A stretch of DNA of 64,000 nucleotides from Candidatus Methanoplasma cognatum (GCA_009777615.1 WRLM01000001.1:1-64000); one strand, 5' to 3'; positions 2 to 22,801 are shown, counted from the first letter of the stretch. Translations and numbers: made by a program. The notes: generated by a model not told the origin, from the sequence alone.

Positions 2-3000
2 GTCCCGTACGTGAGCGGCGTACCGTTCGAAATCAACAAGGACGACAACCTGTGGATCGCGGCAGAGGCGGCACCCACGTACACTTTCAGGTACTGGATG
101 GACGACACTACCGCCGGTGCAACGAGGAATGTGGGCACGCACACTGCAGCCACTGCGGAATACACCGCGTACTTCCTCGGAGCCGGCGCAGTCAATCTTA
201 CCCTGACCGCATATCCCGCAGGAACCGGTTCCTTCCAGTACAGGCTTGCGGGTACCACCGTATGGCAGAACTACTCAGGCTCGCCGGTGCAATTCAACAT
301 CGGTGATGATGTAGAGGTAGAAGCAATTCCGTTATCCGGGTATAGCTTCCGCTTCTGGGAGGATAATGATAATACTAATGCGAGGACATTCACGATAACC
401 GCTGGCGGTGCCTCGCACACAGCATACTTCCTCATCGATGTACCCAACAGGGTCCAGGTCACTCTGACCGACAGCCCGTTGGGAGGGGCGCAGGCATTCA
501 CATGGATCCTGCCCGGAATGACCGCATCCGTTCCGTATGCGAGCGGCACGCCGTTCTTCATTAACAAGAGCGACGAACTGACGATCGCGGTCGTTGCGGC
601 AACCGACTATACCTTCAGGTATTGGGATGACAGCTCCACAAGCCTCACCAGGTATGTGGGCACCCACCCCTTCAGCACTGGCGCAGAGGAATACATTGCG
701 TACTTCCTCGATGACCTCAACAAGGTCACCCTGACCCTTGAAGCATCGCCTGTCGTTGCAGCCGGCACCTTTGAGTACAGACTCCAGGGAACGCCGGTAT
801 GGGAAGCCTATCCCGGCACGGCGGTTTGGTTCAACATCGGCGACAACGTAGAGGTCAAGGCAACCGCGGGATCAGGATACTCCTTCCGGTTCTGGGAGGA
901 TGCCAGCTCCAATGCCGAGAGGACACATACGATGTCATCGGTACCAAGCGAGAATGAATTGACCGCATACTTCCTCGGAGGCGACACGGTCGAGATAACC
1001 CTTACCGACATTCCGTCGGGAGCGGGAATATTCTCTTGGCAGCTGGACGGAATGACCGGATCTGTTCCGTACGTGAGCGGCACGCCGTTCCTGGTCAACA
1101 CGATCGATATTCTGACGATCGAGGCCGATGAGGCGCCCAACTACACCTTCCAGTACTGGTTGGATGACGCCTTGGCAGGCATGTCGAGGAACGTCGGAAT
1201 GCAGCTCGCAAACACAGAATACACAGCATACTTCCAATCTGATATCTCCGGCGAGACGGCCGACCTGACCCTTGAGGCGTTGCCCGCAGCCGTGCCCATA
1301 ACCGGTGTCTTCCAGTACAGGATACAGGGAGCGGCGGCATGGAATTACTGCGACGCAGGCACGACGCTGACGTTCAACATCAACGATGTCATAGAGATCG
1401 GAGCGATCGCGCCTTCCGGATATGACTTCATGTTCTGGGAGGACGCAAGCGACGTACCCGTAAGGACATACACAGTATTGGGCGATGACATCCTCACAGC
1501 ATACTTCCTCGGAAGTGATGTAGTCGAGATAACTCTGACCGCAGACCCGTCGGGAACGGGAACGTTCTCCTGGCAGCTGGACGGAATGACCACTTACATC
1601 CCGTACGTGCCCGGCGCACCGTTCACGATCAACAAGGATGATGATCTGTGGATCACGACAACGGCGATACCCACATACAGCTTCCGGTTCTGGGATGATG
1701 CTTCTACAAGCCTCCCCAGGAACGTGGGCACCCACCTCCTCAGCACAGGCACGGAGGAATACACCGCATACTTCCTCGGACTCAACAGGGTCACTCTGAC
1801 CATCGAGGCGTCACCCGACGTCACCCCGGAAGCCGGTACCTTCGAGTACAGGCTCCAGGGAATGACAGCATGGGTCACATACAACAGCACGCCGGCGTTG
1901 TGGTTCAACATCGGCGATGTCGTAGAGGTAAAGGCGACCGCTGAAGCAGGATACAGCTTCCTGTTCTGGGAGAACGCCGACGACAACGTCGAGAGGACAG
2001 TCACAATGGCAGCCGGCGGAGCCGCGCTGACCGCATACTTCCTCGGAGGCGACACGGTCGTGATAACTCTGATCGACAGCCCCTCGGGAGCGGGAATATT
2101 CTCCTGGCAGCTGAGCGGAATGACCGCGTACGTCCCGTACGTGAGCGGGGTACCGTTCGAAATCAACAAGGACGACGACCTGTGGATCGCGGCAGAGGCG
2201 GCACCCACGTACACTTTCAGGTACTGGATGGACGACACTACTGCCGGTGCAACGAGGAATGTGGGCGACCACTCCAGTAACACCACGGGCACGGAGGATT
2301 ACACAGCGTACTTCCTCGGAACCAGCACGGTCGACCTTACCCTGACCGCATATCCCGCAGGAACCGGTACCTTCCAGTACAGGCTTGCGGGTACCACCAC
2401 ATGGTACAACTACACAGGCTCGCCGGTGCCATTCAACATCGGTGATGACGTAGAGGTAGAAGCAATTCCGTTAATCGGGTATAGCTTCCGCTTCTGGGAG
2501 GATAACGATGACACTAATGCGAGGACATTCCCGATAACTGTCGGCGGCGCTTCGCACACAGCATACTTCCTCATCGATGCACCCAACAGGGTCCAGATCA
2601 CTCTGACCGACAGCCCGTCGGGAGGGGCGCAGGAGTTCACTTGGACCCTGCCCGGAATGACCGACTCCGTTCCGTACGTGAGCGGCACGCCGTTCGAAAT
2701 CAACAGGAACGATGAACTGACGATCACGGTCGTTACGGCAAGCGGCTATGCCTTCAGATACTGGGATGACAGCTCCACAAGCCTCATCAGGTATGTGGGC
2801 ACCCACCTTGCCGGCACTCCTGCGGAGTACACTGCGTACTTCCTTGGTTCCAACGTAGCCACCCTGACCCTCGAGGCGTCGCCCCTCGGAGCAGGTACCC
2901 TTGAGTACAGACTCCAGGGAACGGCGGTATGGGAACTCTATCCCGGCACGCCGGTGCAATTCAACGTCGGCGACAACATAGAGGTCAGAACAGCCGCAGA

Positions 3001-6000
3001 ACCAGGATACTCCTTCCGGTTCTGGGAGGATACAAGCACCAGCACCACGAGGACGGTCGCAATGTCCACTACTGGAGAGCTGCTGATCGCATACTTCCTC
3101 GGAGGCGACACGGTCGAGATAACCCTTACCGACATACCGTCGGGAGCGGGAATATTCTCCTGGCAGCTGCTCGGTATGACTGATTTCGTTGCGTACGCGA
3201 GTGGCACACCGTTTGAGATCAACAAGAGCGACTATCTGATAATCGAGGCCAACGAGGCGACCGACTACACCTTCCGGTACTGGTTGGACGATGCTTCGGC
3301 AGGCCAGCTGAGGAATGTCGGCACGCATATTGCAGACACTGCGGAGTACAAAGCGTACTTCCTCTCCGACCTCTACACGGCCGACCTGACCCTTGAGGCG
3401 CTGCCCGCAGCCATCCCCATAACCAATGTCTTCCAGTACAGGATACAGGGAGCGGCGGTATGGAATTACTGCGACGCAGGCACGACGCTGACGTTCAACA
3501 TCAACGACGTCATAGAGATCGGAGCGGTCGCGCCTTCCGGATACGACTTCATGTTCTGGGAGGACGCAAGCGACGTACCCGTAAGGACATACACAGTATT
3601 GGGCGATGACATCCTCACCGCATACTTCCTCGGAAGTGATGTAGTCGAGATAACTCTGACCGCCGACCCGTCGGGAACGGGAACGTTCGAATGGCAGCTG
3701 GACGGAATGACCGCGTTCGTTCCGTACGTGCCCGGCGCGCCGTTCACGATCAACAAGGACGATGATCTGTGGATCACGACCGCGGCGGCACCTACATACA
3801 GCTTCCGGTTCTGGGATGATGCTTCTACAAGCCTCCTCAGGAATGTGGGCACCCACCTCCTCAGCACAGGCACGGAGGAATACACCGCATACTTCCTCGG
3901 ACTCAACAGGGTCACTCTGACCCTGAACGCGTCACCCGACGTCAACCCCGCAGCCGGTACCTTCGATTACAGGCTCCAGGGAATGACAGACTGGGTCGCA
4001 TACCCCGGCGCGGCGGTGTGGTTCAACATCGGCGATGTAGTAGAGGTAAAGGCGACCGCCGAAGGAGTATACACCTTCCTGTTCTGGGAGAACGCCGACG
4101 ACAACGTCGAGAGGACAGTCACAATGGCAGCCGGCGGAGCCGTGCTTACCGCATACTTCCTCGGAAGCGACAAGGTTGAGATAACTCTGACCGACAGTCC
4201 CTCGGGAGCGGGAATATTCTCCTGGCAACTGGACGGAATGACCGCGTACGTCCCGTACGTGAGCGGCGTACCGTTCGAAATCAACAAGGACGACAACCTG
4301 TGGATCGCGGTAGAGGCGGAACTCACATACACCTTCAGGTACTGGATGGACGACACTGCCGCCGGTGCAACGAGGAATGTGGGCACGCACACAGCAGCCA
4401 ACGCGGAATACACTGCGTACTTCCTCGGAGCCAGCTCGGTCGATCTTACCCTGACCGCATATCCCGCAGGAACCGGTTCCTTCCAGTACAGGCTTGCGGG
4501 TACCACCACATGGTACAGCTACTTTGGCATGCCGGTGCAATTCAACATCGGCGATGATGTAGAGGTAAATGCAATTCCGTTAAACGGATATGGCTTCCGC
4601 TTCTGGGAGGATGCCGACGGCACCAACTCGAGGATATTCACAATACCTGCAGGCGGCGCTTCGCACACAGCATACTTCCTCATCAACACGCCCAACAGGG
4701 TCCAGATCACTCTGACCGACAGCCCGTCGGGAGGGGCGCAGGAGTTCACTTGGACCCTGCCCGGAATGACCACGTCCGTTTCTTACGGAACAGGACCGCT
4801 GGAAGTCAACAGGAACGATGAACTGACGATCGCGGTCGCTGCGGCAACCGACTATACCTTCAGGTACTGGGATGACAACTCCACAAGCCTCACCAGGTAT
4901 GTGGGCACCCACCTTACCGGCACTCCTGCGGAGTACACTGCGTACTTCCTCGACGAACTCAACGCGGTCAGCCTGACCCTGGACGCAGACCCGGCCATGG
5001 CCGGCACCTTTGAGTACAGACTCCAGGGAATGCCGGTATGGGAGACCTACCCCGGCACGGCGGTTCGGTTCAACATCGGCGACAACGTAGAGGTCAAAGC
5101 AATACCGTTACCGCTGCCCGGATACTCCTTCCGGTTCTGGGAGGATGCCAGCACCAATGCCGAGAGGACACATACGATGTCATCGGTACCAAGCGAGAAT
5201 GAATTGACCGCATACTTCCTCGCGCCCGGCGCGGTTGAGATAACCCTTACCGACATCCCGTCGGGAGCGGGAATATTCTCATGGCAGTTGCTCGGAATGA
5301 CCGATTCCGTTCCGTACGTGAGCGGCACGCCGTTCTTTGTCAACATGACCGACATCCTGACGATCGAGGTCGACGAGGCGCAGGACTACACCTTCAAGTA
5401 CTGGTTGGACGACGCTTCGGCAGGCATGTCGAGGAACGTCGGAATGCAGTTCGCAAATACGGAATACATTGCGTACTTCCTCTGTGATCTCCCCGGCGAG
5501 ACGGCTGACCTGACCCTTGAGGCGTCGCCCGCAACCATCCCCGCCACCACCGATGTCTTCCAGTACAGGATACAGGGAGCGGCGGCATGGGATTACTGCG
5601 TTGCAGGCACGACGCTGACGTTCAACATCAACGATGTAGTGGAGATCGGAGCGGTCGCGCCTTCCGGATATGACTTCATGTTCTGGGAGGACGCAAGCGA
5701 CGTACCCGTAAGGACATACACAGTATTGGGCGATGACATCCTCACCGCGTACTTCCTCGGAAGCGACAAGGTTGAGATAACCCTGACCGCCGACCCGTCG
5801 GGAACGGGAACGTTCGAATGGCAGCTGGACGGAATGACCGCGTTCGTTCCGTACGTGAGCGGCATACCGTTTGAGATCAACAAGAGCGATGACCTGTGGA
5901 TCACGACCACGCCGGCACCAGCACACAGCTTCCGGTTCTGGGATGATGCTTCCACAAGCCTCCTCAGGAATGCGGGCACACACACTGCAGCCACTGCGGA

Positions 6001-9000
6001 ATACACAGCATACTTCCTCGGACCCAACAGGGTCACTCTGACCATTGAAGCGTCACCCGACGTCACCCCGGAAGCCGGTACCTTCGAGTACAGACTCCAG
6101 GGAATGACAGCATGGGTCACATACAGCAGCACGCCGACGTTGTGGTTCAACATCGGCGATGTCGTAGAGGTCAAGGCGACCGCCGAACCAGGATACAGCT
6201 TCCAGTTCTGGGAGAACGCCGACTTCAATGATGAGAGGACAGTCACAATGGCAGCCGGCGGAGCCGCGCTGACCGCATACTTCCTCGGAGGCGACACGGT
6301 CGTGATAACTCTAATCGACAGCCCGTCGGGAGCAGGATCATTCTCCTGGCAGCTGGACGGAATGACCGAGTACGTCCCGTACGTGAGCGGCACGCCGTTC
6401 GAAATCAACAAGGACGACGACCTGTTCATTAAGGCCGAAGCGGAACCCACATACACCTTCAGGTACTGGGAGGACAACACTCTAACTGCCATCAGGCATG
6501 TGGGCGACCACTCCGGTAACACCACGGGCACGGAGGATTACACAGCGTACTTCCTCGGCCCGGGCGGAGTCTACCTTACCTTGAACACGTACCATCCGGG
6601 AACCGGTTCCTTCCAGTACAGAATTGAAGGGACTTCCCTCTGGTACAACTATATCGGCATACCGGTGGCATTCAACATCGATGATGTCGTAGAGGTAAGG
6701 ACATTCCCCGCATCCGGGTATATCTTCCAGTTCTGGGAGAACGCCGACGACAACGCCGAGAGGACAGTCACAATGGCAGCCGGCGGAGCCGCGCTGACCG
6801 CATACTTCCTCTCCAACCAGCTAGGAAACCAGACTCTGGTCACTCTGACAGATATACCGTCGGGAGCGGGAATATTCTCTTGGTCGCTGCCAGGAATGAC
6901 CGCATCCGTTCCGTACGTGAGCGGCACGCCGTTCCGGATCAACCAGAACGACGTTCTGACGATCGAGGTCGTTGCGGCAACAACCGACTATACCTTCAAG
7001 TACTGGACGGATGACATCAGCGCAGGCATGCTGAGACAAGTGGGCACCCACCCCAACGTCACTGCCAAGGAGTACACTGCGTACTTCCTCGATGACCTCA
7101 ACAAGGTCACCCTGACCCTGAACGCAGAACCGGCGATGACCGGTACCTTCGAGTACACGCTCCCCGGAACAGAAATATGGGTCCCTTACCCCGGCACGCC
7201 GGTTTGGTTCAACGCTGGTGACGGCATAAAGGTCAAAGCAATACCGTTACCGCTGCCCGGATACTCCTTCCGGTTCTGGGAGGATGCCATCACCAATGAT
7301 GAGAGATCGGTCACAATATCTCCTGGCGGAGATGTGCTGACCGCATACTTCCTCTTGCCCGGCGCGATCGAGATAACCCTTACCGACATACCGTCGGGAG
7401 CGGGAATATTCTCATGGCAGCTGAACGGAATGACCGCGTTCGTTCCGTACGTGAGCGGCACGCCGTTCTTTGTCAACATGATCGATGACCTGACCATTGC
7501 AGTCGCTGAGGCGCAGGACTACACCTTCAAGTACTGGTTGGACAACGCCTCGGCAGGCATGTCGAGGAACGTCGGAATGCAGTTCACTGACAGGGAATAC
7601 AAAGCGTACTTCCTCTCCGACCTCTACACGGCCGACCTGACCCTTGAGGCGTCGCCCGCAACCATCCCCGCCACCGCCGATGTCTTCCAGTACAGGATAC
7701 AGGGAGCGGCGGCATGGAATTACTGCGTTGCAGGCACGACGTTGACGTTCAACATCAACGATGTAGTGGAAATCGGAGCGGTCGCGCCTTCCGGATACAG
7801 CTTCAAGTTCTGGGAGAACTCAAGCGACGTACCCGTAAGGACATACACAGTATTGGGCGATGACATCCTCACCGCATACTTCCTTGGAAGTGATGTAGTC
7901 GAGATAACTCTGACCGCCGACCCGTCGGCAGGCGGAGCGCTCTCCTGGCAGCTGGACGGAATGACAGTGTTCGTTCCGTACGTGCCCGGCGCACCGTTCA
8001 CTATCAACAAGAGCGATGACCTGACCGTTCATGCCGAGCAAGCGGCATTATACACATTCGTCTCATGGGAGAATGTTTACACAACCCCAACCTGGATTGT
8101 GGGCGACCACCTTACCAATGTTACCGGTACAGAGACGTACACTGCGTACTTCCTTGACGCCGCTGCGCCGTATCTGACCCTTGAGGCGTCACCCGACGTC
8201 AACCCCGCAGCCGGTACCTTTGAGTACAGGATACAGGGAGCGACGTCATGGACCCCTTACACCGTACCGGTGCAATTCAACTCCGGTTTGGGCATAGAGG
8301 TCAAGGCGAACGCCGAAGCAGGATACAGCTTCCTGTTCTGGGAGGACACCAGCGATGACCCCGAGAGGGCATACACAATGCCGGCCGGCAACACCACGCT
8401 TACGGCATACTTCCTCTCAACCAATGTCAACGATCAGGTAGAGATAACCCTGACCGCCAGCCCGTCGGCAGGCGGAACGTTCGAATGGCAGCTGGACGGA
8501 ATGACCGCGTTCATTCCGTACGTGAGCGGCTCTCCGTTCACGATCAACAGGACCGATGACCTGACCGTTCGGGCCATAGAGGCTCCGGGATATGACATCA
8601 GATTCTGGGAGGATAACTCCATAGACCTAGTCAGGCATGTGGGCGACCACCCCAGCACCACCGGTGCAGAGGAATACACTGCGTACTTCCTCGGTCCCGC
8701 TGCGGTCTCCCTGACTCTTGTGGCGTCACCTGACGACACCCCCCCAGCTGGTACCTTCGAGTACAGGCTCCTGGGAATGGACACGACGATCTGGTTCCCC
8801 TACACAGCGGGTACGCCGGTATGGTTCAATGTTGGTGACGACATAGAGGTCAGAACAACTGCGGCAAACGGATACACGTTCAGGTTCTGGGAGGATACCA
8901 GCACCAACGTTGAGAGGACATTCACAATGCCCGCCGGCGGCGCCGTGCTGACAGCATACTTCCTATCTCCCAACATCAACGACCGGGTAACGATAACTCT

Positions 9001-12000
9001 GACCGCCGACCCGTCGGCAGGAGGAGCATTCACCTGGTGGCTGGACGGAATGACCGGATCCTTCTCGTGCGCTAGCGGCGCGTCGTTCACGATCAACAAG
9101 AGCGACGACCTGTTCGTCGAGGCCCAAGCGGAAACCGACTACACCTTCAAGTTCTGGATGGACGATGCTGCCGCCGGTGCAACGAGGCATGTGGGCGACC
9201 ACCTCCCCAACACCACCGGCGTTGCGGGATACACTGCGTACTTCCTCGACGACCTAAACGCGGTCGGCCTGACCCTGAACGCAAACCCGTCCATGACCGG
9301 CACCTTTGAGTACAGACTCCAGGGAACGTCGGCATGGTTGCCCTATCCCGGCACGGCGGTTTGGTTCAACGCCGGCGACAACGTAGAGGTCAAAGCAATA
9401 CCGTTACCGCTGCCCGGATATTCCTTCCGGTTCTGGGAGGATGCCGGTACCAATGTCGAGAGGACACATTTGATGTCATCGACGCCAAGCGATAATGAAT
9501 TGACCGCATTCTTCCTCATGCCCGGCGCGATCGAGATAACCCTTACCGACATCCCGTCGGGAGCGGGAATATTCTCCTGGACTCTGCCCTTAATGACCGC
9601 TTACGTTCCGTACGTGAGCGGCACGCCGTTCTTTGTCAACATGATGGATATGCTGACGATCAAGGTCGACGAGGCGCAGGACTACACCTTCCAGTACTGG
9701 TTGGATGATGCCTCGGCAGGCATGACGAGGAACGTCGGAATGCAGTTCTCTAACGCAGAATACAAAGCGTACTTCCTCGATGACCTCAACGCGTTCGACC
9801 TGACCCTCGAGGTGTCGCCCGTAACCGTCCCCGTAACCGATACCTTCCGGTACCGGATACAGGGAGTGGCGACATGGGAATACTGCGACGCAGGCACGAC
9901 GCTGGCATTCAACCTCAACGACATCGTAGAGATCGAAGTGATCACGCCTTCCGGATACGACTTCATGTTCTGGGAGAACACAAATGACATACCCGTAAGG
10001 ACATACACAGTGTTGGGCGATGACACCCTCACAGCATACTTCCTCTCAACCAATGTCAATGATCAGGTAGAGATAACTCTGGTCGCCGACCCGTTGGGAT
10101 CTGGAACGCTCTCCTGGCAGCTGGACGGAATGAACGCGTTCATTCCGTACGTGCCCGGCGTGCCGTTCGTGATCAACAAGAGCGATGATCTGATCGTTCA
10201 TGCCATGGAAGAGGCAGGATACACTTTCATCTCGTGGGAGAATGTTTACACAACCCCAACTTGGATTGTGGGCGACCACATCACCAACACCACCGGCACA
10301 GAGGGATACACTGCGTACTTCCTTGACGCCGCTGCGCCGTATCTGACCCTTGAGGCGTCACCCGACGTCAACCCCGCAGCCGGTACCTTTGAGTACAGGA
10401 TACAGGGAGCGACGTCATGGACCCCTTACACCGTACCGGTGCAATTCAACTCCGGTTTGGGCATAGAGGTCAAGGCGAACGCCGAAGCAGGATACAGCTT
10501 CCTGTTCTGGGAGGACACCAGCGATGACCCCGAGAGGGCATACACAATGCCGGCCGGCAACACCACGCTTACGGCATACTTCCTCTCAACCAATGTCAAC
10601 GATCAGGTAGAGATAACCCTGACCGCCAGCCCGTCGGCAGGCGGAACGTTCGAATGGCAGCTGGACGGAATGACCGCGTTCATTCCGTACGTGAGCGGCT
10701 CTCCGTTCACGATCAACAGGACCGATGACCTGACCGTTCGGGCCATAGAGGCTCCGGGATATGACATCAGATTCTGGGAGGATAACTCCATAGACCTAGT
10801 CAGGCATGTGGGCGACCACCCCAGCACCACCGGTGCAGAGGAATACACTGCGTACTTCCTCGGTCCCGCTGCGGTCTCCCTGACTCTTGTGGCGTCACCT
10901 GACGACACCCCCCCAGCTGGTACCTTCGAGTACAGGCTCCTGGGAATGGACACGACGATCTGGTTCCCCTACACAGCGGGTACGCCGGTATGGTTCAATG
11001 TTGGTGACGACATAGAGGTCAGAACAACTGCGGCAAACGGATACACGTTCAGGTTCTGGGAGGATACCAGCACCAACGTTGAGAGGACATTCACAATGCC
11101 CGCCGGCGGCGCCGTGCTGACAGCATACTTCCTATCTCCCAACATCAACGACCGGGTAACGATAACTCTGACCGCCGACCCCTCGGCAGGAGGAACGTTC
11201 GAATGGCAGCTGGACGGAATGACCGCGTTCATTCCGTACGTGAGCGGCTCTCCGTTCACGATCAACAAGAGCGACGAACTGACCATTGAGGCCATAGAAG
11301 CAACCGACTATACCTTTGAGTACTGGGCAGACGACAACTCTACAGACCCCCTCAGATATGTGGGCGACCATCTCGGCAACACCACCGGCACAGAGGAATA
11401 CACTGCGTACTTCCTCAGTGACAACGCGGTCGAACTGATACTCAAATCGAGTCCCCCTCTGGGCGGCACATTTGAGTACAGGCTCCCCGGAACAACGACA
11501 TGGGTGGTCTATGTCGGCACGCCGCCGGAGCAATTCAACGTCACCGATGTCATAGAGATCAGAGTAATTGAGGCAGCCGGATACACCTTCCAGTTCTGGG
11601 AGGATTACACCACCAACTCTGTGAGGACACATACGATGTCAGCGGTGCCTGGCGAGAATGAACTGACCGCATACTTCCTCTCCGATGACCCCGACGATCA
11701 GGTAGAGATAACTCTGACCGCATCGCCAGCAGGAGCGGGAACGTTCGAATGGTGGTTAGATGGAATGACCGCATCCGTTCCGTATGTGGAGGGAGTGCCG
11801 TTCGTGATCAACAAGACCGACATCCTGACGATCGAGGCCATAGATGATACGGGCACCTTCATGTATTGGGAGGATTCGTCCACAAGCGCGGAAAGGCTCG
11901 TGGGCACACACGTCACCGACACCAAGAGCTACACTGCGTACTTCTCCGGAGTTGACATGGTCGTCCTGATCCTCGAGTCGTCCCCCGCCGCTGCGGATGT

Positions 12001-15000
12001 CGTCTTTGAGTACAGGGTTAACGGAGCATCGTCATGGACCACTTACAACATGCCGGTACAACTCAACCCCAGCGATGTCGTAGAGATCAATACGTATGCG
12101 ACAAACGGATACACCTTCCGGTTCTGGGAGGACAGCACTAACAGCAACCCGAGGACATACACTATGTCTTCAGTTCCTTACACCAATGAGACACTGACAG
12201 CATACTTCCTCTCCGACAACCCCGGCGATTGGGTAACGATAACCCTGACCGCCGACCCGTCGGCAGGAGGAACATTCACATGGTGGCTGGACGGAATGAC
12301 CGGATCCTTCCCGTGCGCTAGCGGCGCGTCGTTCACGATCAACAAGGACGACGACCTGACGATCGAGGCCGATGAGGCGCCCTTATATGACTTCCTGTTC
12401 TGGGAGGACAGCACCCTAACTGCCATCAGGAATGTGGGCGACCATCTCAGCAACACCACTGGCACGGAGGATTACACTGCGTACTTCCTCGACACCACCA
12501 ACGCGGCCACCTTGACCCTTTTGGCGTCACCCGATGTCACCGCCGGCAGCTTCGAGTACAAGTATCCGGCAATGACGGACTGGATAGAATATCTGGGCTC
12601 GCCGGTGCAATTCAACATCGGCGATGCCGTAGATGTCAGAACGACTGCGGAAACCGGATACACCTTCCGGTTCTGGGAGGATACCAGCACCAGCCCATCG
12701 AGGACACATACGATGTCATCGGTGCCAGGCGACAATGTGCTGACGGCATACTTCCTCTCCGACAACTCCAGCGATTGGGTAACGATAACCCTGACCGCCG
12801 TGCCGTCGGTAGGAGGAACGTTCTCCTGGCAACTGGACGGAATGACCGTATCCTTCCCGTGCGCTAGCGGCGCGTCGTTCGTGATCAACAAGGACGACGA
12901 CCTGTGGATCATGGCCGAAGAAGCACCCACACATACCTTCAAGTTCTGGATGGACGACACTGCCGCCATTGCGATTAGGCATGTAGGCGACCACTCTGGC
13001 AACACCACCGGCACAGAGGAATACACTGCGTACTTCCTCTCAAATGACCCCGATGAGACGACCGAACTGACCCTTGAGGCGTTACCCGACGTCAACCCCG
13101 TAGCCGGTACCTTTGATTACAGGCTCCAGGGAATGATGGTCTGGATCCCATACCCGGGCATGGCGGTGACGTTCAACGACACCGATGTTGTAGAGGTCAA
13201 GGCGAACGCTGAACCTGGATACAGCTTCATGTTCTGGGAGAATGCCGACGACGACCCTGAGAGGACGGTCATAATGTCCATCGACAGAGACCTTACCGCA
13301 TACTTCCTCGGAGGCGACACGGTTGAGATAACCCTGGTCGCCGTGCCGTCGGCAGGAGGAACGTTCTCCTGGCAGCTGGACGGAATGACTGCGTTCGTTC
13401 CGTATGTGAGCGGCGTACCGTTTGAGATCAACAAGATCGATGACCTGACCATCAGGGCCGAAGAGGCACTCACACACACCTTCCTGGTCTGGGAGGATGC
13501 TTCCACAAGCCCCACCAGGTATGTGGGCGACCACCTCCTCAACACCACCGGCACAGAGACGTACACTGCGTTCTTCACCTCTGACAACCCCGCCGAGAGG
13601 TTCGCCCTGGAACTTCTGGCGGTACCGTTCGGGCTGGGCACCTTTGAGTACATGCTCTCCGGAATGACAGACTGGGCCGCATACACAGGCTCGGAGCTGT
13701 TCAACGTCGGCGATACCGTACAGGTCAGAGCGGTCGGTGTACAAGGGTATACCTTCCAGTACTGGGAGGTAATCACAAACACCAACCCCGTCAGGTCATT
13801 CGACAGCATCAATAACTTCGGTGTCGCATACTTCCTTGCGGACGAACCCAGCGGCAGGGTCAAGGTGACCCTGACCGATGTCCCGTCGGGAGCTGGAACG
13901 TTCACTTGGCAGGTATACGGAATGCCCTACGCTTTCGAATATACCGACACCGGACCGTTCTACGTCAACAGGTTTATCGATGACCTGACCATCAGGGCCA
14001 GAGCGGAACCCGACTACACCTTCAAGTTCTGGATAGATGAACCAGTTACGACTGCACTCAGGGACATATATTCCTTCTATCTGGATGACGACGAGAAAGA
14101 ATACATTGCGTACTTCCTCTCCGACGACCCCAATGATACGGCCGACCTGACTCTGGGAGACAACCCCACGGGGTCCGGCGCCTTTAAGTACCAGTTCGAT
14201 GGTTTTGGAATGACGCATTGGTATAACTTCGTAGGAACGACAATGACGTTCAACAAGACGGACGACGTGATTGTCAGGGCAGATGCGCAACCCTCGTTCA
14301 CCTTCCTTTTCTGGAAGGATGCGGACACTGACCCCGTAAGGCCATTTGATATGTCCCTCGGTAACCAGTCGGATGTAGCGTACTTTGTCTCAAATGCCAT
14401 TGGCGACTGGGTAGAGATAACCCTGACCGACGTACCGTCGGGAGCGGGAACGTTCACATGGTGGCTGTATGGAATGACCGGAACCGTTCCGTACGTGGAC
14501 GGCGTGCCGTTCAGGATCAACAAGAGCGATGAACTGTTCGTCGAGGCCACAGCGGAATCTGGATACGACTTCAAGGTCTGGAGTAACGGTACTGCAAACC
14601 CAATCCTGAATGTGGCCAACCACAGTGGCAGCTCAGGCACGGAGGGTTACACAGCGTACTTCCTCGGAAGCAACACGGCCCCGTTGATTATTATCCCAAT
14701 GCCCAGCGGAGCCGGCACCTTCCAGTACAGGTATTTCGGAATGACAGAATGGGCCGCATATACTTCCGGCGAGCTATTCAATGTCCATGACCACATAGAG
14801 CTCAACGCAGTCCCCGGAAGTGACTATGAATTCAGGTTCTGGGAAGATGGTAAGTCAGGCCTGTTTACAATCGACAATTTCGATCAAGCAGGCGAGACTG
14901 TGTATGCATATTTCCTCACCAATGATTTGGATGGCAGGGGATATGTAGAATATGACATACCTTCTGACATCGAGGATATGGTGCTAGCAGGAGATGAAAA

Positions 15001-16504
15001 TGCATATTTCTGGTGGAAACTGCCTAACATGACTGCGAACATCCTCTACAATCTTGGTGAGCCGATCGAGGCCAACTTGGGCGAAGTTGTGTGGATCATC
15101 GGACCATCAGACCTTGGGTACTGGGCGGACTTTGGAGAAGGGGTAATAACAGGTCCTGTAGATGTGACTGTGAAGACGACATGTGAGTGGATAAGTGGTC
15201 GTGGCAGCGATGCCGGAACCATCCCGGTCATTGACGCATTGACCCTTGATTCATATGCCGCAGGGACCGGCACATTTGAATACAGGCTCCAGGGAGCGGC
15301 GGATTGGCTTACCTATGCCGCAGGCACTCCGGAGGTATTCAGCGCGGGCGATGTTATCGAGATCAGAACAGTTGCGGAACCCGGATACACCCTCCGGTTC
15401 TGGGAGGATGGCACCGATGCCGCTCAGAGGACATTCACCATGCCCTCCGGCGGCGCCGTGCTTACAGCATACTTCCTCTCTGATGACCCCGACGACACGG
15501 CCGAGATAACTCTGACCGCCGCATCAGGCGAGGGAGTGTTCTCCTGGTCGTTGCCTGGAATGACGGCGGCCGTTCCGTACGTGAGCGGCGTACCGTTCCT
15601 CATCAACAAGAGCGACGATCTGACGATCGAGGCCGCTGCGGAGCCCGGATATGTCTTCTGGTACTGGGACGGCGCTTCCGCAAACCCTTCCTGGCATGTG
15701 GGTGTCCCCGCTGCCGGCGATGCGGAATACGCTGCGTACTTCCTCGCGGAGGACGCAGCCGTCCTGACTCTGGAAACGGACCCCGCTGGGATCGGTACCT
15801 TCCAGTACAGACTCCTGGGAACGACGGATTGGTATGATTACGCCGGCACGCCGGTTGTATTCGACGCAGGCGATATCGTTGAGGTGGTAAGCATCGCTCC
15901 GGTGTCTGAATACCCATTCCAGAATGGATATTCTTTCCTGTGCTGGGAGGATGGCACTGACGCCGTTCTGAGGACATTCACCATGCCCTTCGGCGGCGCC
16001 GTGCTAACCGCCACTTACACGCTCGGCGACAATGTCCTGATCACTCTGACTGCAGACCCCGCAGGGGCGTTTGCCTGGTCGCTGCCCGGAATGACCACGC
16101 CAATCCCGTACGAGGGACCGTTCTACATCGACATTGCAGATGAGATAATGATCTACTCCGTATCGGTCTCCGGAGAGTATGCTTTCCTTTGCTGGGAAGA
16201 CGGCTCTGCAAGCTCATTCTTGTATGTCGGCCCGCACTCCGATGATACGGAATATATTGCGTACTTCGCCGCCATGTTCTTAATTGAAGTGGAGGCAGGC
16301 GAGGGGGTAGTATCAAGCGGATCGTTTGCAGTCATTGAAGGAGCTGACCATACCGTCACTTTCAGCGCAGCTGAGGGATATACCATATCTGCGGTGATCG
16401 TGGACGGTGTGCCCCTCTCTCAGGAGGATGCGGATCTTGGGTCCTATACATTCTGCGGCGTGCAGAACTCCCATATCATAGAGGTGATAGCGGCACAGGG
16501 TTAA
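2..16504 (+). CDS. Giant modular surface protein, 5' end outside window (partial)
   Basis: The reading frame is open from the first complete codon, and the residues before the first in-frame GTG match internal repeats, so the true start lies upstream. The visible part is almost entirely tandem modules of about 89 residues; I count about 61. Two types alternate. Type A has a core like GMTxxVPYVSGxPF then YTFxYW. Type B has a core like GTFEYRLQG, then FNIGDxVEV and GYSFxFWED. Most end in LTAYFL or YTAYFL. Type B resembles the divergent InlB B-repeat / Flg_new_2 type of cell-surface repeat. The last ~75 residues form a different small domain that recurs in the next gene. No C-terminal membrane segment is visible. 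By inference this is a secreted, possibly surface-bound adhesin-like protein; its ligand is unknown. Confidence 0.85.
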   Translation, partial: VPYVSGVPFEINKDDNLWIAAEAAPTYTFRYWMDDTTAGATRNVGTHTAATAEYTAYFLGAGAVNLTLTAYPAGTGSFQYRLAGTTVWQNYSGSPVQFNIGDDVEVEAIPLSGYSFRFWEDNDNTNARTFTITAGGASHTAYFLIDVPNRVQVTLTDSPLGGAQAFTWILPGMTASVPYASGTPFFINKSDELTIAVVAATDYTFRYWDDSSTSLTRYVGTHPFSTGAEEYIAYFLDDLNKVTLTLEASPVVAAGTFEYRLQGTPVWEAYPGTAVWFNIGDNVEVKATAGSGYSFRFWEDASSNAERTHTMSSVPSENELTAYFLGGDTVEITLTDIPSGAGIFSWQLDGMTGSVPYVSGTPFLVNTIDILTIEADEAPNYTFQYWLDDALAGMSRNVGMQLANTEYTAYFQSDISGETADLTLEALPAAVPITGVFQYRIQGAAAWNYCDAGTTLTFNINDVIEIGAIAPSGYDFMFWEDASDVPVRTYTVLGDDILTAYFLGSDVVEITLTADPSGTGTFSWQLDGMTTYIPYVPGAPFTINKDDDLWITTTAIPTYSFRFWDDASTSLPRNVGTHLLSTGTEEYTAYFLGLNRVTLTIEASPDVTPEAGTFEYRLQGMTAWVTYNSTPALWFNIGDVVEVKATAEAGYSFLFWENADDNVERTVTMAAGGAALTAYFLGGDTVVITLIDSPSGAGIFSWQLSGMTAYVPYVSGVPFEINKDDDLWIAAEAAPTYTFRYWMDDTTAGATRNVGDHSSNTTGTEDYTAYFLGTSTVDLTLTAYPAGTGTFQYRLAGTTTWYNYTGSPVPFNIGDDVEVEAIPLIGYSFRFWEDNDDTNARTFPITVGGASHTAYFLIDAPNRVQITLTDSPSGGAQEFTWTLPGMTDSVPYVSGTPFEINRNDELTITVVTASGYAFRYWDDSSTSLIRYVGTHLAGTPAEYTAYFLGSNVATLTLEASPLGAGTLEYRLQGTAVWELYPGTPVQFNVGDNIEVRTAAEPGYSFRFWEDTSTSTTRTVAMSTTGELLIAYFLGGDTVEITLTDIPSGAGIFSWQLLGMTDFVAYASGTPFEINKSDYLIIEANEATDYTFRYWLDDASAGQLRNVGTHIADTAEYKAYFLSDLYTADLTLEALPAAIPITNVFQYRIQGAAVWNYCDAGTTLTFNINDVIEIGAVAPSGYDFMFWEDASDVPVRTYTVLGDDILTAYFLGSDVVEITLTADPSGTGTFEWQLDGMTAFVPYVPGAPFTINKDDDLWITTAAAPTYSFRFWDDASTSLLRNVGTHLLSTGTEEYTAYFLGLNRVTLTLNASPDVNPAAGTFDYRLQGMTDWVAYPGAAVWFNIGDVVEVKATAEGVYTFLFWENADDNVERTVTMAAGGAVLTAYFLGSDKVEITLTDSPSGAGIFSWQLDGMTAYVPYVSGVPFEINKDDNLWIAVEAELTYTFRYWMDDTAAGATRNVGTHTAANAEYTAYFLGASSVDLTLTAYPAGTGSFQYRLAGTTTWYSYFGMPVQFNIGDDVEVNAIPLNGYGFRFWEDADGTNSRIFTIPAGGASHTAYFLINTPNRVQITLTDSPSGGAQEFTWTLPGMTTSVSYGTGPLEVNRNDELTIAVAAATDYTFRYWDDNSTSLTRYVGTHLTGTPAEYTAYFLDELNAVSLTLDADPAMAGTFEYRLQGMPVWETYPGTAVRFNIGDNVEVKAIPLPLPGYSFRFWEDASTNAERTHTMSSVPSENELTAYFLAPGAVEITLTDIPSGAGIFSWQLLGMTDSVPYVSGTPFFVNMTDILTIEVDEAQDYTFKYWLDDASAGMSRNVGMQFANTEYIAYFLCDLPGETADLTLEASPATIPATTDVFQYRIQGAAAWDYCVAGTTLTFNINDVVEIGAVAPSGYDFMFWEDASDVPVRTYTVLGDDILTAYFLGSDKVEITLTADPSGTGTFEWQLDGMTAFVPYVSGIPFEINKSDDLWITTTPAPAHSFRFWDDASTSLLRNAGTHTAATAEYTAYFLGPNRVTLTIEASPDVTPEAGTFEYRLQGMTAWVTYSSTPTLWFNIGDVVEVKATAEPGYSFQFWENADFNDERTVTMAAGGAALTAYFLGGDTVVITLIDSPSGAGSFSWQLDGMTEYVPYVSGTPFEINKDDDLFIKAEAEPTYTFRYWEDNTLTAIRHVGDHSGNTTGTEDYTAYFLGPGGVYLTLNTYHPGTGSFQYRIEGTSLWYNYIGIPVAFNIDDVVEVRTFPASGYIFQFWENADDNAERTVTMAAGGAALTAYFLSNQLGNQTLVTLTDIPSGAGIFSWSLPGMTASVPYVSGTPFRINQNDVLTIEVVAATTDYTFKYWTDDISAGMLRQVGTHPNVTAKEYTAYFLDDLNKVTLTLNAEPAMTGTFEYTLPGTEIWVPYPGTPVWFNAGDGIKVKAIPLPLPGYSFRFWEDAITNDERSVTISPGGDVLTAYFLLPGAIEITLTDIPSGAGIFSWQLNGMTAFVPYVSGTPFFVNMIDDLTIAVAEAQDYTFKYWLDNASAGMSRNVGMQFTDREYKAYFLSDLYTADLTLEASPATIPATADVFQYRIQGAAAWNYCVAGTTLTFNINDVVEIGAVAPSGYSFKFWENSSDVPVRTYTVLGDDILTAYFLGSDVVEITLTADPSAGGALSWQLDGMTVFVPYVPGAPFTINKSDDLTVHAEQAALYTFVSWENVYTTPTWIVGDHLTNVTGTETYTAYFLDAAAPYLTLEASPDVNPAAGTFEYRIQGATSWTPYTVPVQFNSGLGIEVKANAEAGYSFLFWEDTSDDPERAYTMPAGNTTLTAYFLSTNVNDQVEITLTASPSAGGTFEWQLDGMTAFIPYVSGSPFTINRTDDLTVRAIEAPGYDIRFWEDNSIDLVRHVGDHPSTTGAEEYTAYFLGPAAVSLTLVASPDDTPPAGTFEYRLLGMDTTIWFPYTAGTPVWFNVGDDIEVRTTAANGYTFRFWEDTSTNVERTFTMPAGGAVLTAYFLSPNINDRVTITLTADPSAGGAFTWWLDGMTGSFSCASGASFTINKSDDLFVEAQAETDYTFKFWMDDAAAGATRHVGDHLPNTTGVAGYTAYFLDDLNAVGLTLNANPSMTGTFEYRLQGTSAWLPYPGTAVWFNAGDNVEVKAIPLPLPGYSFRFWEDAGTNVERTHLMSSTPSDNELTAFFLMPGAIEITLTDIPSGAGIFSWTLPLMTAYVPYVSGTPFFVNMMDMLTIKVDEAQDYTFQYWLDDASAGMTRNVGMQFSNAEYKAYFLDDLNAFDLTLEVSPVTVPVTDTFRYRIQGVATWEYCDAGTTLAFNLNDIVEIEVITPSGYDFMFWENTNDIPVRTYTVLGDDTLTAYFLSTNVNDQVEITLVADPLGSGTLSWQLDGMNAFIPYVPGVPFVINKSDDLIVHAMEEAGYTFISWENVYTTPTWIVGDHITNTTGTEGYTAYFLDAAAPYLTLEASPDVNPAAGTFEYRIQGATSWTPYTVPVQFNSGLGIEVKANAEAGYSFLFWEDTSDDPERAYTMPAGNTTLTAYFLSTNVNDQVEITLTASPSAGGTFEWQLDGMTAFIPYVSGSPFTINRTDDLTVRAIEAPGYDIRFWEDNSIDLVRHVGDHPSTTGAEEYTAYFLGPAAVSLTLVASPDDTPPAGTFEYRLLGMDTTIWFPYTAGTPVWFNVGDDIEVRTTAANGYTFRFWEDTSTNVERTFTMPAGGAVLTAYFLSPNINDRVTITLTADPSAGGTFEWQLDGMTAFIPYVSGSPFTINKSDELTIEAIEATDYTFEYWADDNSTDPLRYVGDHLGNTTGTEEYTAYFLSDNAVELILKSSPPLGGTFEYRLPGTTTWVVYVGTPPEQFNVTDVIEIRVIEAAGYTFQFWEDYTTNSVRTHTMSAVPGENELTAYFLSDDPDDQVEITLTASPAGAGTFEWWLDGMTASVPYVEGVPFVINKTDILTIEAIDDTGTFMYWEDSSTSAERLVGTHVTDTKSYTAYFSGVDMVVLILESSPAAADVVFEYRVNGASSWTTYNMPVQLNPSDVVEINTYATNGYTFRFWEDSTNSNPRTYTMSSVPYTNETLTAYFLSDNPGDWVTITLTADPSAGGTFTWWLDGMTGSFPCASGASFTINKDDDLTIEADEAPLYDFLFWEDSTLTAIRNVGDHLSNTTGTEDYTAYFLDTTNAATLTLLASPDVTAGSFEYKYPAMTDWIEYLGSPVQFNIGDAVDVRTTAETGYTFRFWEDTSTSPSRTHTMSSVPGDNVLTAYFLSDNSSDWVTITLTAVPSVGGTFSWQLDGMTVSFPCASGASFVINKDDDLWIMAEEAPTHTFKFWMDDTAAIAIRHVGDHSGNTTGTEEYTAYFLSNDPDETTELTLEALPDVNPVAGTFDYRLQGMMVWIPYPGMAVTFNDTDVVEVKANAEPGYSFMFWENADDDPERTVIMSIDRDLTAYFLGGDTVEITLVAVPSAGGTFSWQLDGMTAFVPYVSGVPFEINKIDDLTIRAEEALTHTFLVWEDASTSPTRYVGDHLLNTTGTETYTAFFTSDNPAERFALELLAVPFGLGTFEYMLSGMTDWAAYTGSELFNVGDTVQVRAVGVQGYTFQYWEVITNTNPVRSFDSINNFGVAYFLADEPSGRVKVTLTDVPSGAGTFTWQVYGMPYAFEYTDTGPFYVNRFIDDLTIRARAEPDYTFKFWIDEPVTTALRDIYSFYLDDDEKEYIAYFLSDDPNDTADLTLGDNPTGSGAFKYQFDGFGMTHWYNFVGTTMTFNKTDDVIVRADAQPSFTFLFWKDADTDPVRPFDMSLGNQSDVAYFVSNAIGDWVEITLTDVPSGAGTFTWWLYGMTGTVPYVDGVPFRINKSDELFVEATAESGYDFKVWSNGTANPILNVANHSGSSGTEGYTAYFLGSNTAPLIIIPMPSGAGTFQYRYFGMTEWAAYTSGELFNVHDHIELNAVPGSDYEFRFWEDGKSGLFTIDNFDQAGETVYAYFLTNDLDGRGYVEYDIPSDIEDMVLAGDENAYFWWKLPNMTANILYNLGEPIEANLGEVVWIIGPSDLGYWADFGEGVITGPVDVTVKTTCEWISGRGSDAGTIPVIDALTLDSYAAGTGTFEYRLQGAADWLTYAAGTPEVFSAGDVIEIRTVAEPGYTLRFWEDGTDAAQRTFTMPSGGAVLTAYFLSDDPDDTAEITLTAASGEGVFSWSLPGMTAAVPYVSGVPFLINKSDDLTIEAAAEPGYVFWYWDGASANPSWHVGVPAAGDAEYAAYFLAEDAAVLTLETDPAGIGTFQYRLLGTTDWYDYAGTPVVFDAGDIVEVVSIAPVSEYPFQNGYSFLCWEDGTDAVLRTFTMPFGGAVLTATYTLGDNVLITLTADPAGAFAWSLPGMTTPIPYEGPFYIDIADEIMIYSVSVSGEYAFLCWEDGSASSFLYVGPHSDDTEYIAYFAAMFLIEVEAGEGVVSSGSFAVIEGADHTVTFSAAEGYTISAVIVDGVPLSQEDADLGSYTFCGVQNSHIIEVIAAQG
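11..10690 (+). repeat. Higher-order tandem repeat, five units of about 2.12-2.17 kb
   Basis: The codons for VSG(V/T/S)PF that mark the first A module of each unit fall at 11, 2141, 4259, 6383, 8522 and 10691. This gives unit lengths of 2130, 2118, 2124, 2139 and 2169 bp, all multiples of three. Each unit holds eight modules in the order A1-B1-A2-B2-A3-B3-A4-B4. Position-specific variants recur in the same slot: B3 carries a YC-AGTTL segment and B2 carries IPLPLPGYSF in units 3-5. The block of eight therefore appears to have been copied as a whole. Confidence 0.85.
8138..9012 (+). repeat. 875-bp perfect direct repeat, copy 1
   Basis: This stretch is identical base for base to 10307-11181, at an offset of 2169 bp (723 codons). 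The copies differ at the bases just outside: g versus a before the repeat, and ccg versus ccc at its 3' edge. It covers about 3.3 modules of the giant gene. Confidence 0.95.
10307..11181 (+). repeat. 875-bp perfect direct repeat, copy 2
   Basis: Second copy of the perfect repeat at 8138-9012. No synonymous differences are present, while other corresponding modules in the gene differ at many positions. This points to a recent duplication or gene conversion. Confidence 0.95.
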
Positions 16505-16923
16505 GGAATGCGGCAATGAAGGTGCCGGCCGTGCGGAATGCAGCCTTGCGAAAGGTCTATGCGTTCGTGCCGGTCCGGCCCTTATCTATTTTTTTATAGT
16601 CATGTGGGGAATCGGAATGAGCAGAAAGATGACTATCAGTCATCCGTCGCACTCCGCATCCGAATATGATGATGCGGTCGATGGTTGGTAGGGGGCAGGA
16701 GCTCACGGAGGTGACTGCGGGGCGTTTGAGGATGGCGGCCTGGGCAAGTTGCTCCTCTTTGAAGATGGTCAGGGCGGGCGCCGATGGATCGTATGTCCGC
16801 ATGATCGAATTATAAAAGATGCTCCCGCAATGCGCTTATGCCCGATTTTATCAGAAACGAGTAGCGGTTATATATTATATAGCTGAGATACAGGTGTAGA
16901 ATGCAAGGTGTGAGGGAATACTA
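16505..16923. other. Intergenic region between the two surface-protein genes
   Basis: These 419 bases hold a T-rich run at about 16587-16594 (t7 after cttatcta), suitable as an archaeal U-tract terminator for the giant gene, and the promoter of the next gene at the right end. A minus-strand frame at 16557-16802 could encode 81 residues, but it has no recognisable domain and I do not support it as a gene. Confidence 0.4.
16868..16916 (+). promoter_or_regulatory. TATA box and Shine-Dalgarno site of the beta-helix adhesin gene
   Basis: A strong AT run (ttatatattatata, 16868-16881) lies 43 bases before the ATG at 16924. A gaggg motif at 16912-16916 sits 7 bases before the start. The spacing predicts a short leader of roughly 20 bases. 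Confidence 0.6.
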
Positions 16924-19900
16924 ATGCAGACAATCACAAAAAACAAATTCGGCAATGTTGCCGCAAAGAGAAAAAGAGCAATGCCCGTTGCGGTATTGGC
17001 TCTGGCGCTGATCTCGGTCGCCGCGCTGGCACTGTTAATGCCCGCCTCGACGGTATCGGGAGGAACAGGCACCTTTACCTATATCGACGTGGACGGGGTG
17101 CCGGTCTTGAAAAATGCTGAGATCCTGCTCCTCCAGACGGACTTTGATGACAGCGGGCCGGGCGACTACTATCTTGAAGATACAGGCGGGGGAGCCGGAG
17201 GATGGTTCATAGTCATGGACGATATCGACCTTGGTTCGGGCAGCACCCTGACCATAAAAGGCACCGGGGCCACCGATGAAGTGGGGCTAATCATCGGCAC
17301 TGACTATACTCTGACCGTGCCCGGAGGCGTGATCGTTGAACCAGGAGTCACTCTTCATCTTTATACACAACAAAAGGCCGGCGGCGCCATAGACTACGGT
17401 AAGCTTTATACCAATACCCGTAGCATAACAATCTATGATTCATGTGTTGTTTTTAATTCGGCTACTATTGAGGCAAGCTCAGGAGGAGGCATCTATACCG
17501 CCGTCCCAGGGAACGTTGAAATTACAAACGGTACTGTTGGCAGCATAGAAAGCACCACCGGAGGCATCATGATCTCAGATCCCGACATGAGAGCTGTGAT
17601 TTACAACAAAGGTTCCATCGAATCGGGCGACACCGGCATCATGTTACTTGGTTCCTCCAGCGTCTACAACACGGGCCAGATCAAAGGTGTCCGTTCAGGC
17701 ATAGAGGCAAATTACATCGATGGAAGCATAGACACCATCTACAATGGCAGCACCGGCAACATCGAAGCAGGTAACCGGGGAGCGATATATATCATTGGAG
17801 GAAATGACGTCCATATCACTAATGAAGGCGATCTCAAGACCAACCATCTCCTTGGCTATGCGATCTACCTCGGCACCACCACCTCCACAGGCAAGCTTGA
17901 CAACACAGGCCGTATCTCAGGCGTAATGTATGCCATACAATTTGTGGGCAGTGCTTCCATTAACAATATCGGCGACGGATTAACTACAGGCATAATCCAA
18001 GGCCCTGCCGCGTTAGAAGTCATCCGCCCTGACTCCGAAATCCTCTATAACACTGGCCTGATCGAAGGCCAGATATCTTTTGGATGGTCGGTGGAACCCA
18101 CTAATGACACAAAACTTATGACAATCAACAACGAGGGCATCATTAGTAACACTACTGTTAACTCTTTGAATACCATCAACGGAGCGTGCCGGGTTATTGT
18201 CAATAACGACGGGATCATCCGCTATGCTCCTCCTGGCATTACAATACCTGGCGGTTATGCCATGCAGCTTAGTAGAGGCGGCGGCGTCAACAATACCGGC
18301 GACGGCATAAGCACAGGCATTATTGAAAGTATCAGAGGGGGCGTATACGTCTCCACTAGGAACACTAACGATGCTATTTACAACAGCGGCCGGATTGAGA
18401 GCTCGAATTCATACGCCGTAAGTATCAATAACCTAATCGGCAACAGCTACAGTATCCTCAATGAAGGCACCCTCAAAGGGGTTACTTACGGTATCCAGGT
18501 GACTGGATCCGGCCTGGACAAAGAGATCATCAATAAAGGCTACATCGAAGGCGGCACCAGCGGAATCTACATCAATTCTTCTCTTTTACAACTTTCTAAC
18601 ATCGGCGACGGATTAACTACAGGCGTCATCACGGGTGCGACGGGCGTATATCTCAATGACATCGCATCCCCACTTAATAGCACCAACACCAACAAAATCG
18701 ATAACCGCGGCAGGATCGAAGGCACAAACGGGGACGGCATACATATGAAGGGAGACATTCCTGCCGTCGCCACCATCGTCGAGATCACCAACACCGACGA
18801 CGGAACAAATCATGGCCTCATCAGAGGCACCGACTGCGGCATCCGTCTCACCGATTGTGATACCGCTGAAATCGACAACACAGGCCGCATCATCGGCGGC
18901 AATTACGGTGTGTATTCCAATTACTCTGTTTCCATCGACAACGTCGGCGACACTCTTAACACCGGCATCATAACAGGCGCAGCCGGAATATATGCCGGGA
19001 ACTTTGCCGCAGGGGACGAGATCAATAATTCCGGTCTGATCGAAGGCACGGGGGGTAACGGCATCCGGATCGCCGGCGGGACCGGCGCCGTGATCAACAA
19101 TGAGATCACCACCGTTGGTCTGAACACATATGTCGGCAAGGTCACCGGCACCAATTACGGTATACGCTTAGACATCAACGGCGCGGTCGACAATGAAGGC
19201 ATAATCGATGCCACCAACAATTACGGCATCTACGCCGCCGTTTCCGCTTCGGTCGACAACAACGGCAACGGCGTCGGCACCGGCATTATAAGAGGTACCA
19301 CCGGAGTATACATCACGAACTTTGCCGCAACGGACCACGTAAGCAACTCAGGTCTGATCCTAGGCAGGACATTGGACGGCATCCGGATTGCCGGCGGGAC
19401 CGGCGTCAATATCGACAACACAGGCCGCATTGAAGGCGCCAACAACGGCGTCTACTCTGCCGTTTCCGCTTTTATCGACAATGTCGGCGACACTCTTAAC
19501 ACAGGCATTATAAAAGGCGCCGTCGGAGTACATATCGGAAGCTTTGCCGCAGGAGATCAGGTCAAGAACTCCGGCCTTATCGAAGGCACGGGGGGTAACG
19601 GCATCAACATCGCCGGCGGGACCGGCGCTGTGATCAACAACGAGATCCTCACCGTCGGCTTAAACACATACATCGGTAAAATTACCGGCACCAATCATGG
19701 CGTATCATTGAGCATCAGAGGCACGGTCAACAATGCAGGCATCATTTCAGGCGGCTCTGCGGCCGGCCAATACGGCGTCTACGCCAATACTTCCGCCTTT
19801 ATCGCCAACAACGGCGACAGTTCGACCACCGGCGTGATAACAGGCGGAGGAGGAGTATACATTGGAAGCTTCGTCACAGGAGACCAGATAAACAACTCCG

Positions 19901-22728: not shown

Positions 22729-22801
22729 CTGCGTTTTCCTAACGAATAATTAGCTATTTCACTGCGTTTTCCTAACGAATAATTAGCTGCTTAACTGCGT
22801 T
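22729..22801. repeat. 33-bp period tandem repeat, about 2.2 copies
   Basis: A 27-base core (beginning ctgcgttttcc, ending attagct) occurs at 22729-22755 and identically at 22762-22788. A truncated third start (ctgcgtt) lies at 22795. The period is exactly 33 bases. It lies about 150 bases upstream of the AAA ATPase gene. With only two full units and a six-base variable gap it is not a CRISPR array. Confidence 0.8.

Follow-up and report, generated by a model that had tools for sequence, protein, structure and literature searches.

The repeat gene and its eight-module period

At the start of the window, the 64,000-nucleotide stretch of the Candidatus Methanoplasma cognatum genome analysed here (GCA_009777615.1, WRLM01000001.1:1-64000), a single open reading frame (ORF) spans positions 2-16504 on the plus strand, on which all parts of the array described below also lie, and encodes a giant repeat protein of at least 5,500 codons. 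Its 5′ part is organized as a repeat of repeats, in which eight small modules form a unit that recurs in tandem. The genome comprises 7 contigs (1.62 Mb) and is placed in the genus of Candidatus Methanoplasma, archaea of the arthropod gut. Because contig C1 starts at window base 1, the 5′ end of the gene is absent. The initial annotation of this DNA had recognized a gene of more than 16 kb, in agreement with the uninterrupted frame. The start it gave, position 11, is merely the first GTG within the open frame and not a real start, and the gene extends about 5.8 kb beyond the end it gave, position 10690, without the eight-module period.

The ORF contains about 62 all-beta modules of ~89 residues each, which alternate strictly between two types, A and B. 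Modules were delimited at a conserved AYFL motif, resulting in lengths of 82-94 residues. Hidden Markov models (HMMs) of both types read the window protein as B-A-B-A, unbroken across ~56 modules (85-94 residues in this segmentation), which bears out the alternation of ~89-residue modules proposed initially. The same models read a paralogue on contig C6 (L009, 4,277 residues) as A-B-A-B over 35 modules, and the arrays of relatives as irregular, e.g. BBBABABBBBBABBAB.

On top of this alternation, modules 0-41 display a period of eight. Modules eight positions apart (lag 8) share a mean identity of 0.763; the mean is 0.705 for lag 16 and 0.628 for lag 24, compared with 0.540-0.544 at lags 2, 4, and 6, 0.53-0.56 at other even lags generally, and 0.35-0.36 at odd lags. 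When modules were shuffled within type, thereby keeping the A-B alternation, none of 20,000 permutations reached the lag-8 mean of 0.740 obtained with identical pairs excluded (permuted mean 0.571, maximum 0.634). Past module 42, the period vanishes, with a lag-8 identity of 0.44 and a lag-2 identity of 0.47 in the tail. Together with unit spacings of 706, 708, 710, and 723 residues, these values confirm an eight-module unit of 706-723 residues.

Unit 1 (modules 0-7, positions 2-2044) begins with a module that is truncated by the contig start. It is followed by unit 2 (modules 8-15, 2045-4162, 706 residues), unit 3 (modules 16-23, 4163-6286, 708 residues), unit 4 (modules 24-31, 6287-8416, 710 residues), and unit 5 (modules 32-39, 8417-10585, 723 residues). 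Further downstream, a non-periodic tail of diverged A and B modules (43-60, 11417-16270) leads to a C-terminal domain that belongs to neither type (16271-16504). In relatives, the equivalent of this domain is followed by a membrane anchor, which is absent here.

Maximum-likelihood trees of the A and B modules, which took in the C6 paralogue and relatives, group same-slot modules across units 1-3 in nearly all slots, with the slot-3 module 11 (W11) falling outside. According to the trees and to best-hit tables, this grouping extends as far as module 29 or so, although only weakly for slots 1 and 2 in unit 4. For most slots, none of 500 label shuffles was as low as the observed same-slot clades, and slot 5 forms one clade with a support of 100 in the Shimodaira–Hasegawa-like approximate likelihood ratio test (SH-aLRT). 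Alignments of whole eight-module windows by MAFFT were left out, since their register slipped. A clustering of neighbouring modules instead of same-slot modules, which would speak against block duplication, was looked for in the identity lags and the trees and was not seen.

The initial annotation had proposed five repeats with the same variant in each slot. This holds for all slots of units 1-3, for slots 0-5 of unit 4 (1 and 2 weakly), and for slots 3, 4, and 5, the sole slots that persist throughout and are common to all five units. In contrast, slots 6, 7, 0, 1, and 2 of units 4/5 (modules 30-34 and 38-42) fail to group with the main repeat; slots 6 and 7 of unit 4 belong to a second variant set, and only slots 3-5 of unit 5 (9248-10045) are part of the main repeat. 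Modules 0-29 (positions 2-7885) form a genuine eight-module higher-order repeat, and the nested repeat is real, yet less regular than first claimed.

Block copying, gene conversion, and register

The period is also found at synonymous sites. Where conserved codons are fourfold-degenerate, identity reaches 0.854 for lag 8, 0.850 for lag 16, and 0.832 for lag 24. The remaining even lags lie at 0.61-0.68 (lags 2/4/6 at 0.65), and codon use predicts 0.32. Since synonymous sites carry the eight-module period, the units descend by block copying and not by protein convergence: the eight-module blocks arose by copying of DNA. Alternatively, the period could reflect selection on the protein, with the slots shaped independently by a structural or binding periodicity and without any block copying. 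In its favour, the slots are indeed of differing character and each unit has one recurrent cysteine, but the values of 0.83-0.85 at fourfold sites and the long exact DNA matches in register contradict such an origin, which we consider extremely improbable. Same-slot clustering and the period at fourfold sites thus substantiate the likeness to satellite higher-order repeats that had been drawn from the outset.

Units 1-3 are 0.855-0.881 identical to each other in nucleotide sequence and 0.72-0.79 identical to units 4-5, and the corresponding synonymous divergence (dS) is 0.22-0.26 and 0.39-0.48. The ratio of nonsynonymous to synonymous divergence (dN/dS) between units is mostly 0.4-0.65, and the frame is intact. 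Judged by these divergences, the copies are old but still readable, are subject to weak purifying selection, and do not stem from duplication in the assembly. Suspicion of an artefact might arise from the contig start within the array, from an exact 875-nucleotide tract that is present twice, and from relatives' contigs, which likewise end within their repeat genes. However, nucleotide differences among units 1-5 amount to 12-28% and leave the frame intact, unlike duplicated read data, which makes an artefactual origin of the repeat very unlikely. At most, the 875-nucleotide copy could be a local assembly error.

This tract (8138-9012) is 100% identical to positions 10307-11181 at an offset of 2169 nucleotides, i.e. 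one unit, and is flanked by sequence of 78-83% identity. As a single recent crossover would duplicate all 2169 nucleotides, conversion, or an older duplication with later homogenization, fits this copy better. Moreover, 126 two-against-two sites in units 1-4 support differing groupings in differing slots, and neighbouring sites of like pattern number 79 versus 45 expected from shuffles (p = 0.0002). Among units 1-3, dS is also uneven between slots (0.11-0.45). Because of the mosaic signal, the uneven slot dS, and the exact 875-nucleotide copy, gene conversion is needed besides block duplication, and these patterns point to in-register conversion as a second process acting on the array. Growth by nothing but unequal crossing-over between complete 2.1-kb blocks would agree with the tandem, in-register arrangement and with the near equidistance of units 1-3. 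It would leave unexplained that informative sites alternate, patch by clustered patch, among the three groupings that the units allow, and that the identical tract covers just 40% of a unit; accordingly, we regard crossing-over without conversion as quite unlikely. Of the growth by unequal exchange of 2.1-kb blocks envisaged in the initial annotation, block duplication is retained, while whole-block exchange alone is not sufficient.

Homologous recombination requires exact stretches, the minimal efficient processing segments. In the array, exact matches of at least 25 nucleotides occur in 82% of same-slot module pairs, in 10% of same-type pairs from other slots, and in 0% of A versus B pairs. 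Outside the 875-nucleotide tract, 1078 of 1342 repeated 30-mers are spaced by a multiple of eight modules, compared with 15% expected by offset. As slots have diverged until about half identical, sufficient perfect homology for recombination would be confined almost entirely to modules of the same slot. Exchange would therefore stay mostly in register, and it is plausible from this distribution of matches that array length changes in steps of ~2.1 kb (~709 residues). When one unit was used as query against genome contigs, none of 10 pattern matches was confirmed, and a module-alignment scan of viral contigs returned no match.

In the tree, modules 30-34 (7886-9247) represent the second variant set. 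Their nearest relatives are modules 38-42 (10046-11416), which form a second copy of this set, and modules 25, 26, and 33 of the C6 paralogue. Within the tail, modules 50-55 (13310-14917) are colinear with modules 13-18 and partly with modules 27-30 of the C6 paralogue. By these sequence relationships, the last third of the array combines main-repeat modules with those of a different set. The main repeat has no slot-specific counterpart in the C6 paralogue, which suggests to us that its expansion postdates the split of the two genes.

Predicted protein fold, probable export, and possible function

Two 1,500-residue stretches of the protein match PF18998 (Flg_new_2, divergent InlB B-repeat) with 107.3 and 112.3 bits at a cut-off of 23.6, and many single places in the protein also exceed this cut-off. 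By whole-protein score, Ppnp and other unrelated Pfam families appeared as well; no single stretch passed for any of them, and we regard these scores as chance sums over many repeats. NCBIfam gave sub-threshold matches only, and a PDB sequence search with A-B-A-B and B profiles gave no significant match. AlphaFold2 predicts an all-beta structure for A-B-A-B, with a predicted local distance difference test score (pLDDT) of 95.5 and a predicted template modelling score (pTM) of 0.81. For a single B module, it predicts seven strands and no helix (pLDDT 96.2). The InlB B-repeat has been described as beta-grasp-like (PMC9723798); the helix that accompanies the beta-grasp in the InlB B-repeat proper is missing from the predicted module.

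Homologues from the same genus possess an N-terminal hydrophobic, signal-like segment (L042) or a C-terminal membrane anchor (L043, L044), and the C6 paralogue has a signal-like N terminus inside its first ~190 residues. Over the compared stretch, two homologue contigs are identical to metagenome-assembled contigs, JAIRUV010000044.1 of Candidatus Methanoplasma sp. Ehx436_bin13 and WRJJ01000017.1 of Methanomassiliicoccaceae archaeon Nt197P3bin8. In a single-contig genome of the genus, the homologous repeat gene is distributed over two overlapping ORFs with a change of frame between them (L044:9139-9455), owing either to a frameshift or to a sequencing error. Near a contig end of another relative (G015, L042:5123-6163), three consecutive B modules are 93-99% identical, a recent expansion of single modules and not of an eight-module unit.

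The window protein is strongly acidic, with a net charge of about -510 (K+R-D-E count). Slot 5 carries a cysteine at the same place in each unit, encoded at 1349-1351 in unit 1 and at 3470-3472, 5597-5599, 7724-7726, and 9884-9886 in units 2-5 (residues 450, 1157, 1866, 2575, and 3295). Two further cysteines lie in the 5′ array (1828 and 3023), and the L043 and L044 homologues contain none. Special conservation of slot 5 for function was considered and set aside, since its low dS makes recent homogenization sufficient.

For gut Methanomassiliicoccales, proteins that carry related repeats have been suggested to function in attachment (PMC9723798). With a probability of roughly 70%, we interpret the gene, from a methanogen of the arthropod gut, as coding for a giant repeat protein that is exported and adhesin-like, the 5′ part of which is a coding higher-order repeat formed by block duplication and conversion. 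The sequence shows that the 5′ two-thirds took shape in this way: a block of eight modules, i.e. four A-B pairs, was duplicated in tandem into a coding higher-order repeat, and conversion between same-slot modules then homogenized the unit copies in patches. From sequence and model, an extended exported adhesin-like rod is the most likely form of the product; this acidic rod would lie on or outside the cell and presumably mediate attachment. Through its slot-specific differences, the one cysteine per unit among them, the rod may present a binding or cross-linking site again and again along its length, as happens in titin super-repeats. Taken further, the protein could be a single archaeal rod, a “prokaryotic titin”, whose length is tuned in quanta of eight domains (~709 residues) by register-locked recombination and whose cysteines provide evenly spaced sites for cross-linking or binding. 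We deem this extended version unlikely.

Several observations weigh against the interpretation as an exported, functionally structured rod. Compared with solved structures, the A-B-A-B model yields a best E of 1.1e-10 with a TM score of only about 0.2, and the single B module a best E of 0.005 with a TMq of 0.46; these matches are weak and fall mostly on Gram-positive pilins and adhesins, and a CnaB/pilin-type Ig-like domain is at most a candidate assignment for the module. The window protein is without the C-terminal anchor of its relatives, as the ORF stops after the InlB-like end domain, and no frame-shifted anchor remnant was found at 16505-16924 in all six frames. Signal peptide and promoter lie outside the assembly, so that the protein's export and its true length are inferred. 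The high conservation of slot 5 is accompanied by low dS (0.14-0.18), so that recent homogenization may explain the sameness. Finally, no length variation between strains was observed, the repeat unit being absent from all 16 other genomes of the genus that were compared.

A rival explanation is neutral repeat turnover in a non-essential coding region, in which the higher-order pattern would be a by-product of recombination and no slot would have a function of its own. It is consistent with per-slot dN/dS of 0.35-0.79, which indicates weak purifying selection, with the best-conserved slot also being a low-dS slot, and with the other long array of the genome (26 modules of 90 residues), which has no higher-order pattern. 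However, the frame is intact over 16.5 kb with dN/dS below 1 throughout, A-B alternation is strict across ~56 modules and recurs in the paralogue, and the slot-5 cysteine is retained in five of five units. Neutral turnover is possible but, in our view, less likely, and we favour the exported adhesin-like rod.

The other long array belongs to a giant ORF of at least 4,967 residues with a C-terminal membrane anchor on contig C1 (~552.5-567.4 kb; L045:3-14906). Its near-uniform modules are 0.80-0.835 identical at every lag from 1 to 19. A third giant gene (L047; contig C6, 26-38 kb, minus strand) encodes 3,418 residues with 60-residue “KKNFGGSG” repeats in blocks and ends in a GDCEDH-containing transglutaminase-like region, as does the adjacent C6 paralogue. 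Its period of 514-516 residues was rejected as a second higher-order repeat, as it comes without slot-specific similarity and consists of blocks of near-equal 60-residue repeats plus linkers; with about seven repeats each, the blocks are perhaps beta-propellers. Since neither gene has slot-specific nesting, the nested pattern is not a general by-product of giant-gene evolution in this organism.

Downstream of the array gene, positions 16924-21840 encode a protein of 1,638 residues that ends in a membrane helix plus cytoplasmic tail (KRPYxFxxEG...YRVGEDGxWK...DVxDxLxIExR). This tail is also present at the ends of the giant proteins L045, L046, and L043, and no Pfam or NCBIfam hit was seen for it. 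An intergenic 33-bp direct repeat (22729-22801; 2.2 copies, 92% matches) precedes an AAA_14/DUF4143 gene.

Comparison with known systems

As far as we found, a nested “repeat of repeats” has not been reported before from a prokaryote; the logic itself is known from titin, NBPF, and MUC5B. Our literature searches turned up no higher-order organization of InlB B-like repeats, and nothing relevant on bacterial coding super-repeats in the open-licence literature searched. Found in an archaeon with a compact genome of 1.6 Mb, such an array would demonstrate that block duplication, register lock through module divergence, and conversion can arise without introns, meiosis, or large genomes. As the array can be compared slot by slot, in principle also between strains, it would offer a tractable system to study when a homogeneous tandem becomes higher-order, with the flat, non-hierarchical array of the same genome serving as a natural control.

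In terms of module, the nearest known proteins are the adhesin-like proteins of gut Methanomassiliicoccales with Listeria-Bacteroides/InlB B-like repeats (Flg_new, Flg_new_2). They share with the window protein the repeated PF18998 matches over the cut-off, the archaeal order, and the gut habitat. In contrast, the PF18998 profile covers only part of the window module, which is predicted without helix.

Among eukaryotic giants, super-repeats also occur in nebulin. The Olduvai triplets of NBPF, a protein-coding gene family, have been explicitly called an intragenic higher-order repeat (PMC9584774). They are human-specific and intron-containing, with a 3mer unit of ~4.8 kb, whereas the array here is intron-free with an 8mer unit of ~2.1 kb. 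Super-repeat units with cysteine subdomains are a feature of MUC5B. According to a title cited in PMC3257693, alternating subdomains in its central exon form a super-repeat within one large exon. Unlike the window protein, MUC5B is a mucin, intrinsically disordered, glycosylated, and unrelated in sequence.

In the A-band super-repeats of titin (11 domains in the C-zone, and those of the D-zone), domains at the same super-repeat position are most alike. This likeness is strong among central repeats and weaker in the first and last ones, and it is modelled by recursive block duplication (PMC10665226). The window protein resembles titin in its super-repeat of small beta domains, in the resemblance of modules at the same position, and in block duplication. 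The two proteins were not homologous in any test made: titin is a metazoan muscle protein of Ig and FnIII domains, while the array described here, with its eight-module unit built from two related beta modules, belongs to an archaeal protein presumed to lie at the surface.

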